Shown here piece after piece: positions 4,141-62,236 of a stretch of DNA of 62,236 nucleotides. The DNA is from Verrucomicrobiota bacterium. GTDB lineage: Bacteria; Verrucomicrobiota; Verrucomicrobiia; JADLBR01. Numbering within the stretch: position 1 is the stretch's first letter; each line of letters begins with the position of its first letter. The translations under genes were made by a program, and so were the position numbers. The DNA lies in assembly GCA_029560585.1 (NCBI GenBank), contig JAKQKQ010000185.1:1-62236 (forward strand). The letters run 5' to 3'. The notes beneath the pieces are model-generated. The model was not told the DNA's origin. It saw only the letters and a program-made list of their open reading frames with translations, and made no database searches.

Positions 4141-4189
4141 GGCTAAGCCCGTATATTTCACAGCCTAGCGGCTGTGAACTTCCGGGCTT
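4141..4189. repeat. Pair of short hairpins ahead of dispersed repeat copy A
   Basis: Two small perfect stem-loops follow each other: CGGGC-TAA-GCCCG (4138-4152 region) and CACAGCC-TAGC-GGCTGTG (4160-4177). A third, GGCTTT-GGG-AAAGCC, spans the start of the dispersed element at 4185-4199. None has a T-run, so intrinsic termination is unlikely. They may be part of the element's left flank, since copy B also has a hairpin at this place. Confidence 0.5.
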
Positions 4190-4368
4190 TGGGAAAGCCG
4201 CGCCATGAAAGCCATTTATTGGGAAAGTTCAGGCAAAGACTGGGTTCTTTCGAGGTTGCAGAGTGTGTATCGCGGATCGATGGCCCCAGACCCTCCAAAA
4301 TCGCGTTTTTCGGAGCGCGGTTTTCCTCTGAGCCTGCATATTTCACGGGGAAGCGTGAAATATGCAGG
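4190..4368 (+). repeat. Dispersed structured element, copy A (about 180 bp)
   Basis: One of three copies of the same non-coding sequence (others 11516-11692 and, inverted, 62096-62236). All share ATGAAAGCCATTTATTGGG (where present), AGACTGGG..., GGCCCCAG and GGAGCGCGGTTTTCC. All end in a hairpin, here 4333-4368 with a 15-bp stem. An extra A in this copy relative to B shifts any reading frame, so no protein is conserved. The paired blocks CTGGG/CCCAG are kept in all copies. Origin unknown: structured RNA gene, untranslated mobile element, or recombination site. Confidence 0.75.
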
Positions 4369-4422
4369 CTAGATGGCCGTCTCAGACGAATCTGATCGTC
4401 CATCTCATCCGGCTTCAAAATG

Positions 4423-11428: not shown

Positions 11429-11481
11429 ATCAAGACCTCGGCAGCCGCTCGCGTGAGCGCTGGGCCGCATCGACAAAGACT

Positions 11482-11514
11482 AGGAATCTGTCGGACTTAG
11501 GCCGACAGATTCCT
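11482..11514. repeat. Perfect 13-bp stem-loop ahead of dispersed repeat copy B
   Basis: AGGAATCTGTCGG and its inverse flank a 7-base loop ACTTAGG. It lies 53 bases after the OppC-type gene and directly before dispersed element copy B. No T-run follows, so it is not a standard intrinsic terminator. Its core CTGTCGGACTTAGGCCG recurs without change at 50106-50122. Confidence 0.6.
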
Positions 11515-11515
11515 C

Positions 11516-11692
11516 TGGGAAAACCGAGCCATGAAAGCCATTTATTGGGAAAGGTCAGGCAAGACTGGGATTCTTTGCGGTTGCAGAGTGTGTTTCGCTG
11601 ATCGGTGGCCCCAGGGCCTCCAAAATCGCGTCTTTCGGAGCGCGGTTTTCCTTTGAGGCTGCATGTCTCACGCGGAAGCGTGAAACATGCAG
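11516..11692 (+). repeat. Dispersed structured element, copy B
   Basis: 177 bases, aligned over the full length with copy A (4190-4368); one base shorter in the AGGCAAGAC stretch. It ends in the hairpin 11659-11692, where one pair of the stem has changed from A-T to G-C on both arms relative to the other copies. It lies upstream of the C25 protease gene in the same orientation as in copy A. Confidence 0.75.
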
Positions 11693-11955
11693 AATGAAGC
11701 GATTCACTTTTCAAATGCCCGGCGCCCATGTGTTTGCGAAGCGCTAAAGCTGCGGGCGTCAAGGCATCGGATGCAGAGCGGATCACGCGAATTTATGCCC
11801 GTGAGTGGTTTGATTATGAGAATCTTGGAATGCACGATTGCATCCGAACATCTTTTCTGTGGATCTTTATTATTGCCGAGTCTAGATTATACGAATGGTC
11901 GATGGCGTTCAGCCTAGGCTTCGGGCTTCTGGGAGAACGCGGGGAGGAAGATGCA
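11693..11955 (+). other. AT-richer gap upstream of the protease gene
   Basis: 263 bases with lower GC than the surrounding genes. The protease frame stays open back to 11728, but the residues there look untypical, and the Shine-Dalgarno site at 11941-11948 selects the later ATG. It holds a small inverted pair ATGCACGATTGCAT at about 11829 and A/T-rich stretches at 11874-11893 that could house the promoter. No gene is recognised. Confidence 0.4.
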
Positions 11956-14900
11956 ATGAACACCTGTGACAGCCTCAGTGGGCCAATTCGACAGGGGAAG
12001 CGGAAAGGGGTGAGGGTTCTGTCCGACAATTGCGGGATGTTGTGCCTCGCTGTGGTATCGTTAGCCGGTGTTGCAGCGGATTCGCGCGCCGACCAGGTGA
12101 CGATCCACTGGCCGCACGGGAAAACCGCTGCCGTGGTGGTCGAGCGCGGCGCGCGGGGAGAGGCGATCTTTGGACGAACGCCACCCGCCGGTTCTCCCGG
12201 CGAACCGGCCCTGCCCCGGGAGGTGATCCAAGTACTACTGCCGCCGGGGGCCAATCCGCGATCAGTCACCGCATCCCTGCGGGATCCGGTTGTCGAGGAA
12301 CTTCCTGGGGAATGGGATGTGCCACCGGTGCCGCCGGTGGCCATCAGCGCCCGACCGGGAGTGCCCATTTGGCCGCAAGGGCGTACGATAATCAAGAACC
12401 GGGACGCCGAAATCTATGGGGCGAATGCGGTTTGGCCTCCTTCGTTTGTAACGCGTGTCACCGCGGGCGAACTGCGTGGATGGCGCCTGGCGGAAATCCA
12501 TATCCGCCCCTACCGATACAATCCGGCGACCAGGAAACTCTTGCGGCTTAAGGCCGCCAGGCTGTGCATCCAGTTCGATCGCGTGTCCGCCAAAGTTGCA
12601 GCCTCGGTCTTCACCGGTCGGGCGGCTGCCCAAACCCGCAAGTCGGTACAAGACCTCGTGGTGAATCCTGAAGAGTTTGCGGCGCAGTACGAAACCGCTC
12701 CCGACGCCGAACCCCCCGCGGCGCAGTCCCAGCGATATGTCATCCTGACGCGTTCATACATCCAGTCGGCATCCACCCAGCTTGCGGCGTTCGTGAGTGC
12801 CAAGCAGGCTCAGGGTTTCGACGTCAGCGTCGTGACCGAGGCAGCCTGGGGAGGTGGCACCGGAAATGCCGCCGCCGAGAACATCCGATCCTGGCTCGCC
12901 GCCAACTACGCCTCCCAGAACATCAAGTACGTGCTGTTGATCGGCAATCCCAACCCGAGCACCGGCGACGTGCCGATGAAAATGACGTATCCTCAAGATT
13001 ACAATACTTCTTATCCTGACTGCCCCACCGACTATTATTACGCCGAACTCACCGGCGACTGGGATCTGGATAACGACGGCCTTTTTGGCGAGTATGACGA
13101 CGATTGCGGGCCCGGCGGCGCCGAGCGCAATTGCGAGGTCGTGGTCGGCCGGATCCCCTACTACGGCAGCGTGACCGACCTCGACACGATCCTGGCAAAG
13201 ATCATCTCTTACGGCAATGCGACGGAGGCGCAGGCCGCCTGGCGCAAGAGGGCACTGCTCCCCATGGAGCCCAGCGACGACAGCACGCCAGGCTATCAGT
13301 TGGGCGAGGAGATCAAGAACTCCGTTCTCATCGCAAAGGGCGGCTGGTCTTATCATCGCGTGTATGACTCCACCTATGGCCTGGCGCCGCCACCCGAAAC
13401 CACGCCGTGCGACGAGGACAACGTCACGGCCGCCTGGACAGGGAACCCCACCGGCGCGGTCTTCTGGTGGACACACGGCAGCAACATCGGCGCTTCCGAC
13501 ATCATGGACTTGAGCCACGTGGGCTCGCTCGATGACAGCCTGCCCGCTTTCATCTTTGAGTGCAGTTGCCTCAATGCTTATCCCGAGACGCCGAACAATC
13601 TCTCCTACTCCCTGCTCAGGCGTGGCGGCATCTGCGCGATCAGCGGGACGCGGGTCACATGGTATTGGATAGGGCAAACCAGTTTTGCCGGCACCACGTC
13701 GAATTCCGGCATGACCTTCGAGTACGCTAAGCGGCTGGTGCTCCTGGAGATGCCCGCCGGAGACGCCCTTCAGAACCTGAAAACGGCGCTCGCCCCGCAA
13801 AGCGAAACATCGTGGATGAACTATGTTGATTTCAACGTCTATGGCGATCCGGCCGTGGGACTATATACTTTCCTTCCATCTGACGGCCCTGTTCTTGAGG
13901 CGGAGCCCGCCACCACGCCCGGAACCCAAAACACGATTTCCTGGCAGGGGGAGCAGGGCGCACCGGGCGCCGAAGTCATGAGCGTGGCCGGGGTCGTGGA
14001 CTCTCCCGCGACGGAGTCGCCCACGGTTTCGGACCCGGTGCCGGCGAACGTCCGGTCCGCATTGCCCGCGGCCCCGCAAGATTTCGCAACATCAACGGAG
14101 TCCGCGCCCGCGACGGGGCCCGCCCTGCCCATGGGCCAAACGTCGCAAACCGAGATCGTCACTTCCAGTCCATCCGTTCTCTTTCGCGCCGGCGAGATCA
14201 CCGAGGCGGCACCCTCGGTCACGACTGAGGGCGGCATCATGACTGTCACAAATGAAACGCGCCCCCTTCAGCCGTTCATCCCATCTCCCAATGGTGAGCA
14301 GGAAAGCAAGCCCCCGACCGAATCTCTCCCCTCCACGCAGACGTTCGGAGAGACCTTCGAGGGGGTGTTTCCCGGCAGCAGTTGGACCCTGTACGGAAGC
14401 CCAACGTGGGACGACACCAGCTATGAAAAGCATGGGGGGTCGTGGAGTGGCTGGTGCGCGGAAAGCTCGATGAACCCGGCCGGTGGGTACACGAATAACA
14501 TGAACGCCTGGATGGTGTACGGACCGTTCAGTCTCAGCGATGCCACCAGTGCGAGGTTCACTTTCTGGTACAAGAATCTTTCGGAAAGTGGCTGGGACTA
14601 CTTCAAGTGGGGGGCCTCCACAAATGGCACCAGTTTCTACGGACACCAGGTCAGCGGAAATCAGAGCACTTGGCGCTCGGAGGAATGTGATCTCTCGGCT
14701 GTGCCAACGATTGGAAATCTCTGCGGCAAGAGCCAGGTGTGGATCGCATTCTGGTTCACCAGCGACTCCTCTGTCTGCGGGCCGACCTACACCGGCGCCT
14801 ATGTGGATGACATCGTAATCGAGAAAGACTTTGCGCTGCTGGCCGACCTGACGCCCTATCAGAAATCGGGATGGAACGACCGGATCCCGATCGGCACCAC

Positions 14901-17037
14901 GCAATTGGCCGGCACAGACGCCCACGCGTACAGCGGGAAGTATTCCAGCAATCAAACGCTGTATTTCAACTGGGCGTCGATCAATCAGGGTGCGATCGTG
15001 GCGTCGAATTATACGGTGCGCGCCGAGGTCACGGGTGCCGGCGGCGGCAGTTGGACGTGGAGTGGCCTCGCCTCATCACCCGGTTACCACACTTATCTCA
15101 CCACGGATCAGGCTGTGGGCCCACTCGCGGCGGGCGCACACACTTTTAAGGTGTGGGTGGACTACGACGCGACCGTGCCCGAATCGGGCGAGGCCGACAA
15201 CTATTACGAGCGCACCATCATCGTGCAGTCCTCCGAACCGCCGGCCGACCTGACACCCTACCAGAGGACGGGCTGGAACAACAAGATTCCCATCAGCATC
15301 GCGCAAGGGTCGGGCACCAACGACCACATCTACACCGGGAGTTTTTATAGCGACCAGACGCTGTATTTCAACTGGGCCGCGCTCAATCAAGGCGGGCTGG
15401 GCGCATCCAACTACACGGTCCACGTCGAAGTGACCGGCACCGGCGGCGGCAGTTGGGACTGGACGGGCCTTGCCACGGCGCCAACCTATCACACCTACCT
15501 CACGACGGACCGGGCGGTCGGCCCGCTGGCGGCGGGCACCCACACCTTCAAGGTGTGGGTGGACTACGGCGGGGGCGTGCCCGAGTCGGACGAGAGCAAT
15601 AACTATTGCGAGCGGACAATCAATGTCCTGGCGGCCGGAGCGCGGGCGGACCTGACGCCGGGCCAGAAATCGGGCTGGAATGACGAGATCCCCATTGGCA
15701 TCACGCGACTGGCCGGCACCAATGCCCACACCTACTCCGGGAGCTATTACAACGACCAAACGCTGTATTTCAACTGGGCCTCGTTTAGCCAGGGCGCCCT
15801 GGGCGCATCCAACTACACGGTCCACGTCGAGGTGACCGGCACCGGCGGCGGCAGTTGGGACTGGACGGGTCTCACCACACTGGCGGGCTATCATACCTAC
15901 CTAACGACGGATCAGTCGGTCGGCCCGCTCGCCGCGGGCAACCACACCTTCAAGGTGTGGGTCGACTACGCCAGTGGCGTTTCCGAATCGGACGAGGGCA
16001 ATAATTATTACGAGCGGACGATCGCGGTGCAATCAACCGCCGTTCTGGCCGATCTGGCGCCGTATCAGAGATCGACATGGAACGACAAGATTCCAATCGG
16101 CATCACGCAACTCGCCGGGACCAATGCCCACACGTACGCGGGGACCTTTTATAGCGGCCAGACACTGTATTTCAACTGGGCCGCGCTTAATCAAGGCGCC
16201 CTGGGCGCATCCAACTACACGGTCCACGTCGAGGTGACCGGCACCGGCGGCGGCAGTTGGGACTGGACGGGCATCACCACGGCCCCGACCTATCACAACT
16301 ACCTCACGACGGACCGGGCGGTCGGCCCGCTCGCCGCGGGCAACCACACCTTCAAGGTGTGGGTCGACTACGCCGGTGGCGTTTCCGAATCGGACGAGGG
16401 CAATAACTATTACGAGCGCACGATCAATGTCGTTTCCACAGACGTGGAGTGTTACGCTGAATGCGCGGACAATGCGGATTTCAATTCGCCTCAGGCGTCG
16501 GGGTGGATCCAGGCCACGCAATACACGTTTGGTGGTCTCCAGTCAGGCTGTACGTATTGGTATCGCGTCAAATCACGGAGAGATGACACCGTCAGCGCAT
16601 GGTCCAATGTCGAGCACTCGCAGCAGGAAGCGCTCTCCCCGTATGATGCCTGGAAGGCGACCCATTTTTCCGCGAAGCAACTGGCCGATCCCGCGATCAG
16701 CGGCGACGCAGCCTGCCCCGCTGGCGACGGCATGCCGAATCTCCTGAAGTACGCGCTGGCGCTGGATCCGCACGAACCCCGCGCCGATAGCCTGCCTGGC
16801 GCGGCAATCGCCAACGGCTATCTGACGCTCGCCTACCGCCGGTACAAGCAGGCGACGGACATCGCCTTCCTCGTTGAAGCCTGCGACAGTCTCGCGACCG
16901 GAACGTGGAGCGCCGAGGGCCTGACGGAAATCTCGCGGGTTGACGCGGGCGACTTCTGGTGGATCACGATCCGCGACGCCTTCCCGCGCGCCAGCCGCCC
17001 CAGCCGCTTCATGCGCTTGAGCGTCACAAAACCATAA
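11956..17037 (+). CDS. Secreted C25 (gingipain-like) cysteine protease with four CARDB-type repeats
   Basis: 1693 residues. Signal peptide with a long basic front (QGKRKGVRVLSDNCGMLCLAVVSLAGVAADSRA). An N-terminal propeptide-like region (to about 245) precedes the peptidase C25 domain, with catalytic His507 (WWTHGSNIG) and Cys538 (ECSCLNA), 31 residues apart, close to gingipain spacing. Residues about 795-955 form a jelly-roll/MAM-like domain. Four repeats of 134 residues fill 963-1498. A final domain (MPNLLKYALALDPHEP ... PSRFMRLSVTKP) looks like a cell-surface sorting or anchoring region known from Verrucomicrobia-like proteins. The ATG is set by GGGGAGGA at 11941-11948, 7 bases away. Confidence 0.9.
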   Translation: MNTCDSLSGPIRQGKRKGVRVLSDNCGMLCLAVVSLAGVAADSRADQVTIHWPHGKTAAVVVERGARGEAIFGRTPPAGSPGEPALPREVIQVLLPPGANPRSVTASLRDPVVEELPGEWDVPPVPPVAISARPGVPIWPQGRTIIKNRDAEIYGANAVWPPSFVTRVTAGELRGWRLAEIHIRPYRYNPATRKLLRLKAARLCIQFDRVSAKVAASVFTGRAAAQTRKSVQDLVVNPEEFAAQYETAPDAEPPAAQSQRYVILTRSYIQSASTQLAAFVSAKQAQGFDVSVVTEAAWGGGTGNAAAENIRSWLAANYASQNIKYVLLIGNPNPSTGDVPMKMTYPQDYNTSYPDCPTDYYYAELTGDWDLDNDGLFGEYDDDCGPGGAERNCEVVVGRIPYYGSVTDLDTILAKIISYGNATEAQAAWRKRALLPMEPSDDSTPGYQLGEEIKNSVLIAKGGWSYHRVYDSTYGLAPPPETTPCDEDNVTAAWTGNPTGAVFWWTHGSNIGASDIMDLSHVGSLDDSLPAFIFECSCLNAYPETPNNLSYSLLRRGGICAISGTRVTWYWIGQTSFAGTTSNSGMTFEYAKRLVLLEMPAGDALQNLKTALAPQSETSWMNYVDFNVYGDPAVGLYTFLPSDGPVLEAEPATTPGTQNTISWQGEQGAPGAEVMSVAGVVDSPATESPTVSDPVPANVRSALPAAPQDFATSTESAPATGPALPMGQTSQTEIVTSSPSVLFRAGEITEAAPSVTTEGGIMTVTNETRPLQPFIPSPNGEQESKPPTESLPSTQTFGETFEGVFPGSSWTLYGSPTWDDTSYEKHGGSWSGWCAESSMNPAGGYTNNMNAWMVYGPFSLSDATSARFTFWYKNLSESGWDYFKWGASTNGTSFYGHQVSGNQSTWRSEECDLSAVPTIGNLCGKSQVWIAFWFTSDSSVCGPTYTGAYVDDIVIEKDFALLADLTPYQKSGWNDRIPIGTTQLAGTDAHAYSGKYSSNQTLYFNWASINQGAIVASNYTVRAEVTGAGGGSWTWSGLASSPGYHTYLTTDQAVGPLAAGAHTFKVWVDYDATVPESGEADNYYERTIIVQSSEPPADLTPYQRTGWNNKIPISIAQGSGTNDHIYTGSFYSDQTLYFNWAALNQGGLGASNYTVHVEVTGTGGGSWDWTGLATAPTYHTYLTTDRAVGPLAAGTHTFKVWVDYGGGVPESDESNNYCERTINVLAAGARADLTPGQKSGWNDEIPIGITRLAGTNAHTYSGSYYNDQTLYFNWASFSQGALGASNYTVHVEVTGTGGGSWDWTGLTTLAGYHTYLTTDQSVGPLAAGNHTFKVWVDYASGVSESDEGNNYYERTIAVQSTAVLADLAPYQRSTWNDKIPIGITQLAGTNAHTYAGTFYSGQTLYFNWAALNQGALGASNYTVHVEVTGTGGGSWDWTGITTAPTYHNYLTTDRAVGPLAAGNHTFKVWVDYAGGVSESDEGNNYYERTINVVSTDVECYAECADNADFNSPQASGWIQATQYTFGGLQSGCTYWYRVKSRRDDTVSAWSNVEHSQQEALSPYDAWKATHFSAKQLADPAISGDAACPAGDGMPNLLKYALALDPHEPRADSLPGAAIANGYLTLAYRRYKQATDIAFLVEACDSLATGTWSAEGLTEISRVDAGDFWWITIRDAFPRASRPSRFMRLSVTKP
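14842..16449 (+). repeat. Four in-frame tandem repeats of 402 bp
   Basis: Units start at 14842, 15244, 15646 and 16048, each exactly 402 bases and beginning ADLTP or ADLAP. Each encodes a beta-sandwich of CARDB/APHP type with WNDKIPIGITQ, YFNWA, NYTVHVEVTG, GPLAAGNHTFKVWVDY and ESDEGNNYYERTI. The last three are much closer to one another at DNA level than to the first, suggesting recent duplication. Confidence 0.9.
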
Positions 17038-17092
17038 TCGCGGATGTGGAAATGGGGTTTGTGTGGGAATGGGGGAAAATGGGGGGGGGGAT

Positions 17093-17614
17093 GGGGTCAA
17101 CTCTTGAAACTTGAAAACCGGCGGGAGCCTCCGCTGCTCCTCCGGCATGGCCAGACCGATTCGGGTGGAATCTGAGGGCGCAGGGTATCATCACATCATG
17201 GCGAGGGGCAATGAGCGGCGCGAGATTTTTCGGTCGGACAGGTGCCGGGGGCTATTTCTGGAGACGTTGGAGGAGGCCGTCTTGCGGGCGCATGTGGTGG
17301 ACGCCGGGGAGCACGGGATGCAATTGGTGCGTTATATTCACCTGAACCCGGTTCGACCGCGCAGGAAGAACGAGCGGATCCTGGCTGGGCGGGCTACAGG
17401 ATTGGATGCGTATCCATGGAGCAGCCATCGCTCGTACGCGGGACTTGCGGGAAAACCGGGATGGCTCTGCTTGGATTGGTTGCGATTTTGGGGCATCAGA
17501 GCGGGGTGACGCACGCGGTGAATCGGGTCGAGCCACTGGCGCGGATGGATCGGAAAATCGCCACAAGGCTCGATTCATTCAGGCGGCGAATTTCAAGTTT
17601 CAAGAGTTGACCCC
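17093..17614 (+). mobile_element. Internally deleted Y1-transposase element, 522 bp
   Basis: Bounded by inverted ends: GGGGTCAACTCTTGAAAC (from 17093) and TTTCAAGAGTTGACCCC (to 17614). It is a shortened relative of the intact element 20001-21012 in the same orientation. Two internal deletions remove about 171 and 322 bases; both ends are intact, so it could still be moved in trans. Confidence 0.85.
17147..17610 (+). pseudogene. Y1 (HUH) transposase remnant, catalytic histidines deleted
   Basis: It starts MARPIRVESEGAGYHHIMARGNERREIF like the intact gene at 20055. An in-frame deletion of 57 codons (matching 20193-20363) removes the HYH metal-binding motif. A second, 322-base deletion at a GGCA microhomology (matching 20572-20893) shifts the frame, so translation stops at 17509 while the true C-terminus (HQSGVTHAVNRVEPLARMD ... 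ISSFKS) continues in another frame to 17610. The tyrosine region QLVRYIHLNPVRPRRK is still present. It cannot encode an active enzyme. Confidence 0.88.
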
Positions 17615-17622
17615 TTTCCTGA

Positions 17623-20000: not shown

Positions 20001-21012
20001 GGGGTCAACTCTTGAAACTTGAAAATTGGACAGAGCCTCGCACACTCCGCCGCCATGGCCAGACCGATTCGGGTGGAATTTGAGGGCGCGGTGTATCACG
20101 TCATGGCGCGGGGCAATGAGCGGCGCGAGATTTTTCGGTCGGCCCGAGACCGGGGGCTATTTCTGGAGACGTTGGAGGAAGCCGTCTTGCGGTTTGGGTT
20201 GTTGGTGCACGCGTACTGCCTGATGCCGAATCATTACCATCTGGTGGTCGAGACGCCGCGCGGGAACCTGAGCCGGGCCATCGGCTGGTTGCAGGTGACT
20301 TACACGGTGCGATTCAATCGGCGGCACCGGCGCAGTGGCCATCTGTTTCAGGGGCGGTTCAAGGCGCATGTGGTGGACGCAGGGGAGTACGGGATGCAAT
20401 TGGTGCGCTATATCCACCTGAACCCGGTTCGACCCCGCAGGAAGAACGAGCCGATCCCGGCCGGGCGGGCCGCAGAATTGGATGCGTATCCGTGGAGCAG
20501 CCATCGCGCGTACGCGGGACTTGCGGGAAAGCCTGGATGGCTCTGCTTGGATTGGTTGCGATTTTGGGGCAAGAGGGCTGGGGCGGCGCGGAGATCGTAT
20601 CGCGCGGCGATGGCCGGAGCATTTGGCCGGACGCTGCCAAGCCCGTGGGACGAACTTCGGGGCGGGCTGGTCCTCGGGACGGATCGTCTCTGGGAGACGA
20701 CGCGCCGCCTGGTGAAGGCGAAGGAGGCCGATGAGGAATTGCACTGGGCGAAGCGACACGGGGCGAGGCGGGTCCAGCAGGTGGTGAGACAGATGGTGGC
20801 GGACGAGCCCGACGCAGATGTTCGGATGTGGGTCCGGGTGAGATTGGGCGGGGAACCGATGGTCGAGGTGGCCCGGGATTTCGAGTATCGGCATCAGAGC
20901 GGGGTGACTCACGCGGTGAATCGGGTCGAGGCACTGGCGCGAATGGATCGGAAACTCGCCGCAAGGCTCCAGGCGTTCCGGCGGCGATTTTCAACTTTCA
21001 AGAGTTGACCCC
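20001..21012 (+). mobile_element. Intact Y1-transposase element with inverted ends, 1012 bp
   Basis: Left end GGGGTCAACTCTTGAAAC (from 20001), right end TTTCAAGAGTTGACCCC (to 21012): about 25 bp, inverted, with few mismatches. The right end lies inside the transposase gene and encodes its last residues FSTFKS. Y1 transposons of the IS200/IS605 group normally use subterminal hairpins, not terminal inverted repeats, so these ends are unusual. A 14-base tandem repeat (CAGGAACTTGGGGC unit) precedes the left end. Confidence 0.8.
20055..21008 (+). CDS. Y1 (HUH) transposase, REP-associated (RAYT) type
   Basis: 317 residues. HUH motif in MPNHYHLVVETPRGNLSRAI (His60, His62). The likely nucleophile Tyr119 is in MQLVRYIHLNPVRPRRK, followed by YPWSSHRAYAG. 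This matches the RAYT clade of single-strand DNA transposases. The C-terminal half (from about 175) is longer than in minimal IS200 enzymes and ends with a region like a DnaA-type helix-turn-helix (VARDFEYRHQSGVTHAVNRVEALARMD). The ATG at 20055 matches the conserved MARPIRV start. REP-like hairpins of the kind RAYTs act on occur at 1051-1140 and 30535-30602. Confidence 0.9.
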   Translation: MARPIRVEFEGAVYHVMARGNERREIFRSARDRGLFLETLEEAVLRFGLLVHAYCLMPNHYHLVVETPRGNLSRAIGWLQVTYTVRFNRRHRRSGHLFQGRFKAHVVDAGEYGMQLVRYIHLNPVRPRRKNEPIPAGRAAELDAYPWSSHRAYAGLAGKPGWLCLDWLRFWGKRAGAARRSYRAAMAGAFGRTLPSPWDELRGGLVLGTDRLWETTRRLVKAKEADEELHWAKRHGARRVQQVVRQMVADEPDADVRMWVRVRLGGEPMVEVARDFEYRHQSGVTHAVNRVEALARMDRKLAARLQAFRRRFSTFKS

Positions 21013-61940: not shown

Positions 61941-62095
61941 ACGGACGCCCTCACGCGGAACTAATTGAAATTAAGTACGTTACAACAATTAACAAACCAG
62001 ACATTCTGTCGTCACGATGTAAACATAGCCAATTATTGTCCAAATGCGATAATCATTTGAGCGTGCTTTCGGCTGGGGTGACTGACCACCGCTAA
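61941..62095 (-). promoter_or_regulatory. AT-rich upstream region of the histidine kinase gene
   Basis: Roughly 60% A+T between 61960 and 62060, against about 35% elsewhere, so a likely promoter region for the kinase. It is bounded at 62096 by the dispersed repeat. I cannot pick one -35/-10 pair with confidence; there are several TTG-N-TAAT-like choices. Confidence 0.45.
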
Positions 62096-62236
62096 CCTGC
62101 ATATTTCACGCTTCCGCGTGAAATATGCAGGCTCAACGGAAAACCGCGCTCCGAAGAACGCGACTTTGAAGGGTCTGGGGCCACCGGTCCGCGAAACACA
62201 CTCCGCAACCGCGAAAAAACCCAGTCTTTGCCTGAC
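62096..62236 (-). repeat. Dispersed structured element, copy C (cut by window edge)
   Basis: The inverse complement of 141 bases matches copies A and B, from AGGCAAAGACTGGG to the terminal hairpin (62096-62131), a perfect 16-bp stem closed by a GGAA tetraloop. A second small hairpin with a UUCG loop (CGTTC-TTCG-GAGCG) is present in the transcribed sense. The rest of the element lies beyond the window. Confidence 0.75.

Follow-up and report, generated by a model that had tools for sequence, protein, structure and literature searches.

A probable IS1380-type miniature transposable element with a two-hairpin composite build in a verrucomicrobial genome

We analysed a window of 62,236 nucleotides, which is the whole of contig C243 of a 7.06-Mb verrucomicrobial draft genome. 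The window holds a gene for a REP-associated tyrosine transposase (RAYT; 20055-20999) and an internally deleted copy of it (17092-17619), both lying between GGGGTCAACTCTTGAA / TTTCAAGAGTTGACCCC ends, and an open reading frame of 1769 aa (11728-17037) containing four 402-nt tandem repeats (14838-16343) that are 73-74 % identical. Comparison of the window with itself returned a direct repeat of 132 nt at 87 % identity and an inverted repeat of 144 nt at 91 %, and the three related copies noted earlier from the letters alone (hereafter the sequence-only reading) were confirmed at their places and strands, A and B on the forward and C on the reverse strand. Copies A and B each follow, as had also been noted, directly after an open reading frame and precede another. 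The contig, which makes up the whole window, terminates within a repeat, and copy C is truncated for that reason. An alignment of the window copies and 30 others of this genome gave sharp borders running from CTAG to CTAG. The repeat unit itself stands but its borders had to be redrawn, the unit spanning about 221 bp rather than about 180, and copy A begins not at 4190 but at 4148 (copy A = 4148-4368), a left hairpin at 4148-4186 having been overlooked. The features of the three copies are as follows.

4144 to 4147, no strand: left target-site duplication of copy A, decayed (TAAG), from alignment to 65 full copies with consensus CTAG/CTAA
4148 to 4186, forward: left hairpin of copy A, its outer arm CCCGTATATTTCAC being the left terminal inverted repeat, as in IS1380-type insertion sequences
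4191 to 4203, forward: left arm of the closing stem of copy A (GGGAAAGCCGCGC)
4204 to 4314, forward: core of copy A, about 111 nt, non-coding
4315 to 4327, forward: right arm of the closing stem of copy A (GCGCGGTTTTCCT)
4332 to 4368, forward: right hairpin of copy A, its outer arm GTGAAATATGCAGG (4355-4368) being the right terminal inverted repeat
4369 to 4372, no strand: right target-site duplication of copy A, CTAG
11480 to 11483, no strand: left flank of copy B, CTAG
11484 to 11512, forward: left hairpin of copy B, of the second family (GAATCTGTCGGACTTAGGCCGACAGATTC)
11517 to 11652, forward: closing stem and core of copy B, of the first family
11657 to 11693, forward: right hairpin of copy B, of the first family; the target duplication next to it is decayed (ATGA)
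62092 to 62095, no strand: target-site duplication of copy C (CTAA on the forward strand, TTAG on the reverse)
62096 to 62236, reverse: right hairpin, closing stem and partial core of copy C, cut by the contig end

The consensus copy is bounded by CTAG on either side, measures about 221 bp without the target duplications, and reads CTAG / CCCGGATATTTCACAGCC TGCC GGCTGTGAAATTCCGGG CTCT / GGGAAAACCGCGC / 111-nt core / GCGCGGTTTTCCT / TTGAGCCTGCATGTTTCACGCGGAAGCGTGAAATATGCAGG / CTAG, with outer ends of the form CC[C/T]G[G/C]ATATTTCAC. Its core lies between the two hairpins and is closed by a 13-bp inverted repeat. The element carries no transposase or other coding capacity. The lack of a shared reading frame in the sequence-only reading holds for copy B alone; a 55-codon frame is kept in 54 of 63 copies, although its substitutions lack a codon signature (the synonymous fraction is 0.27 in the first family, with 0.29 expected) and it is thus not a gene.

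The end motif matches five times in the window against 0.01 expected and, allowing at most one mismatch and including inner arms, at 360 sites in the 7.06-Mb genome against none for the reversed control. We identified at least 65 full copies with a mean identity of 90 %, together with 27 lone hairpins and many halves, most of the latter cut by contig ends; these counts are lower bounds, since the loci examined cover part of the genome. Many contig ends of the draft genome, including that of the window (62092-62236), fall inside elements, which probably leads to an underestimate of copy number and of any autonomous partner. A second genome of the genus, SJ186 (a Verrucomicrobiia MAG, JADLBR), contains a sister family with the same ends and closing stem and a different core, which is weakly alignable at best to the present one (score above all 500 shuffles, z of about 4). 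The 12-bp stem pattern was absent from 382 further genomes of the class, and blastn searches for the element against plasmids and phages, as well as in viral contigs, returned no match. So far the element is restricted to one verrucomicrobial genus.

At both ends of the element, the 14 bases furthest out form inverted repeats of the IS1380 type. The exact end GTGAAATATGCAGGCTAG is also present in unrelated genomes, and in a betaproteobacterial MAG (L126) the same end bounds a complete 1.6-kb insertion sequence between CTAG sites, the protein of which matches DDE_Tnp_1_4 (E 3e-170) and the NCBIfam IS1380 model (415 bits, cut-off 180). Three plasmid-borne elements of the family have corresponding ends: ISPosp7, annotated as IS1380 (CTAG/CCTGAATATTTCAC...GTGAAATATGCGGG/CTAG), an Acidovorax IS1380 copy (CTAG/CCCGGATATTTCAC...GTGAAATATCCGGG/CTAG), and ISPa33, also annotated as IS1380 (CTAA/CCCGGATTTCTCAT...ATGAGAAATCCGGG/CTAA). 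The Acidovorax end is identical to the left end of the element at 14 of 14 bases. The sequence-only reading had brought no known IS family to mind, which these ends and the duplication described below contradict; the mobile unit that it offered as one of two possibilities agrees with both. It had also named a match to a known transposon end as evidence against its proposal, and the IS1380 ends are such a match.

The 4-mers flanking full copies are matched in 46 of 57 cases, where 30.7 were expected and 20,000 permutations reached at most 40. CTAG is the commonest, and the matched pairs include CTAA/CTAA in seven copies and TTAG/TTAG in two; the unequal 4-mers of the remaining 11 copies reflect decay or recombination. 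For four copies, joining the flanks with a single 4-mer recreates other repeats without interruption, the junctions being gap-free for two of them. Of the four, L079 is inserted in a GTAG REP; REP-like palindromes of this kind (GTAGGAGCGCGCTTGCGCGCGAT...) are common in the genome (L074, L207, L269 and others). As CTAG is palindromic, empty sites alone cannot separate a 4-bp duplication from a 2-bp duplication of TA; the CTAA pairs do. The 4-bp duplication and the empty sites are the mark of a DDE transposon, and the duplication falls within the 4-5 bp of IS1380-type elements, with CTAG and CTAA as in ISPosp7 and ISPa33 and 5 bp reported for IS1247 of the same family (PMC3281130). We conclude that the element is very probably a miniature inverted-repeat transposable element (MITE), that is, a non-autonomous DNA transposon, moved in trans by a DDE transposase of the IS1380 family.

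An intact IS1380 transposase with these ends was not found in the present assembly. The only IS1380-like gene found is a divergent one located at an end of contig C4, with no ends of this type close by. The helper in this genome has therefore been lost, has decayed or is unassembled. SJ186 contains two stretches of a broken IS1380 gene, both at contig ends, one of which is followed by CTAATCCGGACATTTCAT, three changes from the left end of the SJ186 element itself (CTAGCCCGGACATTTCAC). These remains point to a helper transposase of the lineage that is now mostly lost; the majority of copies are therefore probably unable to move at present.

Between CTAG sites there are also solo hairpins of 42-47 nt, each consisting of two end repeats placed tail to tail; they occur in the present genome and in a Nitrosomonas and a gammaproteobacterial MAG. 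Each end of a full element is a hairpin built in the same way, and in one copy (L081/L098) as well as in SJ186 copies (L080, L142) the left hairpin retains a CTAG on its inner side. We infer that two such solo hairpins and a core were combined to give the full element. The hairpins may have originated from an IS1380 element by deletion down to a minimal form and come to flank the core, their inner ends then losing CTAG in most copies, which would have rendered the whole composite mobile as one unit. The transposase would bind the outer ends, excise the element and join it into CTAG.

The element shares terminal inverted repeats and the 4-bp CTAG/CTAA duplication with ISPosp7, ISPa33 and the Acidovorax pEP1 copy, but lacks a transposase gene, measures 221 bp instead of about 1.6 kb, and carries at each end a second, inward-facing copy of that end, giving the hairpin. 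Bacterial MITEs such as the Correia elements of Neisseria and Nezha of cyanobacteria are, as far as is known, tied to other IS families. Like the present element they are short, non-coding and of high copy number, with inverted-repeat ends and a target duplication, whereas the full-hairpin ends and the core with its own closing inverted repeat and fixed length set the present element apart. Non-autonomous elements of 200-260 bp with the same IS1380-type ends occur in Lysobacterales, Oleiharenicola and other proteobacterial MAGs (L114, L130, L136, L144, L157, L161, L163, L170), and IS1380 MITEs seem to be widespread. Many contigs of CAMDKM, a MAG labelled Bordetella parapertussis (L116, L137, L141, L154, L158, L166, L175), likewise bear an end of the IS1380 type, often some 130 bases away from where the contig stops, and an element with such ends is thus probably present in multiple copies in that MAG.

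We identified a second family in both genomes (L290-L319), with ends CTAG-[GC]A[AG][TC]CTGTCGGACTT that differ from those of the first and the layout CTAG / GAATCTGTCGGACTTTGTCCGACAGATTC CTC / TGGCAAAACCGCCT / core / AGGCGGTTTTGC / TTT CTAG CAGCCTGTCGGACTT..AAGTCCGACAGGCTG / CTAG; the plan of hairpin, closed stem and hairpin is shared, and nearly all flanks are CTAG. A candidate autonomous form, a 1624-bp pair of CTGTCGGACTT ends in SJ186, encloses a first-family copy and does not indicate an IS. In a draw of 241 genomes of the phylum, the second-family stem pattern had a single match outside the genus; its core is unrelated, and chance is the most likely cause. Families with distinct ends exchange hairpins. 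The left hairpin of copy B is foreign to its core and of second-family origin, second-family hairpins sit on first-family cores also in L229, L180/L038 and L168, and the reverse combination is found in L294 and L296. The exchange of hairpins as units resembles the stem-loop-replacing transposition of IS1272 (PMC5678879); IS1272, however, lies outside the IS1380 elements and does not duplicate its target. Recombination in the shared CTCTGG[GC]AAAACCG would account for the exchange more simply.

The length of the core is fixed in both families. In searches extending to 1200 nt, the distance between stem motifs was 136-138 nt in 77 of 79 first-family copies and 129-131 nt in 30 of 31 second-family copies, although the second-family cores fall into several diverged subfamilies with a mean identity of 63 %, down to 38 %. 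These cores are non-coding (no frame with z above 1.0), and relatedness to first-family cores was not detectable in comparisons that all gave z below 2. The fixed length goes beyond what a plain MITE accounts for, and our guess is a spacing demand of a paired-end complex. Both families may, more broadly and quite tentatively, belong to a genus-wide class set by form rather than sequence (CTAG, hairpin, closed stem, fixed-length core, hairpin, CTAG), and some step in its movement might then read the folded shape or the exact spacing of the DNA.

Other readings of the repeat fare less well. Takeover by the host, for example as a two-way transcription terminator between genes, would suit the long hairpins at both ends and the position of copies A and B immediately after one open reading frame and ahead of another; the consensus however has no T run after the hairpins, and the many solo hairpins and fragments look like decay, making such a role very improbable.

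The sequence-only reading had also offered an undescribed structured RNA, in which a conserved RNA transcribed from each copy would be the selected product and mobility secondary. The predicted folding is indeed strong (z of about -3.5), RNAalifold on 63 copies recovers both hairpins and the closing stem, these are retained in nearly all copies, and the length of the core stays constant despite sequence divergence. Stable stems are however the inverted repeats that any DNA transposon must have, and the covariation term amounts to -0.63 of -62.6 kcal/mol in the 63 copies and 0.02 of -15.7 kcal/mol in the cores of 29 diverged second-family relatives. Column shuffles are exceeded by a few double changes in the hairpins and by three cells of CTGGG/CCCAG, but compensatory changes are few, confined to the hairpin ends, and near zero in the core and closing stem, with no double change in the closing stem in either copy set. 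The A-T to G-C double change from which selection on structure had been read does exist; it is one position in the right hairpin that tracks subfamilies (AU in 27, GU in 17 and GC in 18 of 63 copies). The CTGGG/CCCAG pairing, which the sequence-only reading saw in all three copies of the window, has lost its innermost pair in 20 of 63 copies genome-wide. Other repeats contain some of the copies, and the Rfam search returned two tRNAs as sole matches and no family for the element. With no Rfam match and almost no covariation, an RNA as the selected product is very unlikely.

Movement of a REP/REPIN-type palindrome by a RAYT draws on the occurrence of single hairpins with a fixed tetranucleotide and on the RAYTs of the genome, one intact and one deleted in the window. 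REPs and REPINs of the GTAG type resemble the element in having hairpins of about 40 nt, alone or paired in inverted orientation, and a fixed tetranucleotide (PMC3733652); in the element, by contrast, that tetranucleotide is the target duplication and a link to a RAYT gene is lacking. A REP tetranucleotide of the GTAG/CGTC type is not what the element carries, its CTAG or CTAA being the duplicated target. Element ends flank none of the 14 Y1-transposase (RAYT-type) loci in the two genomes, and the RAYTs of the window have GGGGTCAACTCTTGA ends. RAYT/IS200-type transposition is not known to duplicate its target, unlike the element, and we regard this reading as extremely unlikely. Equally implausible is a Tc1/IS630-type MITE duplicating TA within CTAG, for although the sites are centred on CTAG, a palindromic target, the base inside TA on the left covaries with the one outside TA on the right (CTAA/CTAA in seven copies), indicating a 4-bp duplication, and IS630-type genes, none with these ends, number two in the present genome and zero in SJ186 despite the same elements.

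We accordingly regard the element as a new MITE of the IS1380 type whose composite build from two hairpins is unusual. IS1380-derived MITEs have hardly been described, and we found in the literature no description of a two-hairpin, fixed-length design and no IS1380-derived MITE like this element. Its assignment removes a candidate structured RNA and places a major repeat of the genome, one that also breaks the assembly, with a named transposase family. That the core keeps a strict length while its sequence turns over, in two families whose ends differ, presents a clean and testable puzzle on how a transposase pairs two ends, or on a folded DNA intermediate.
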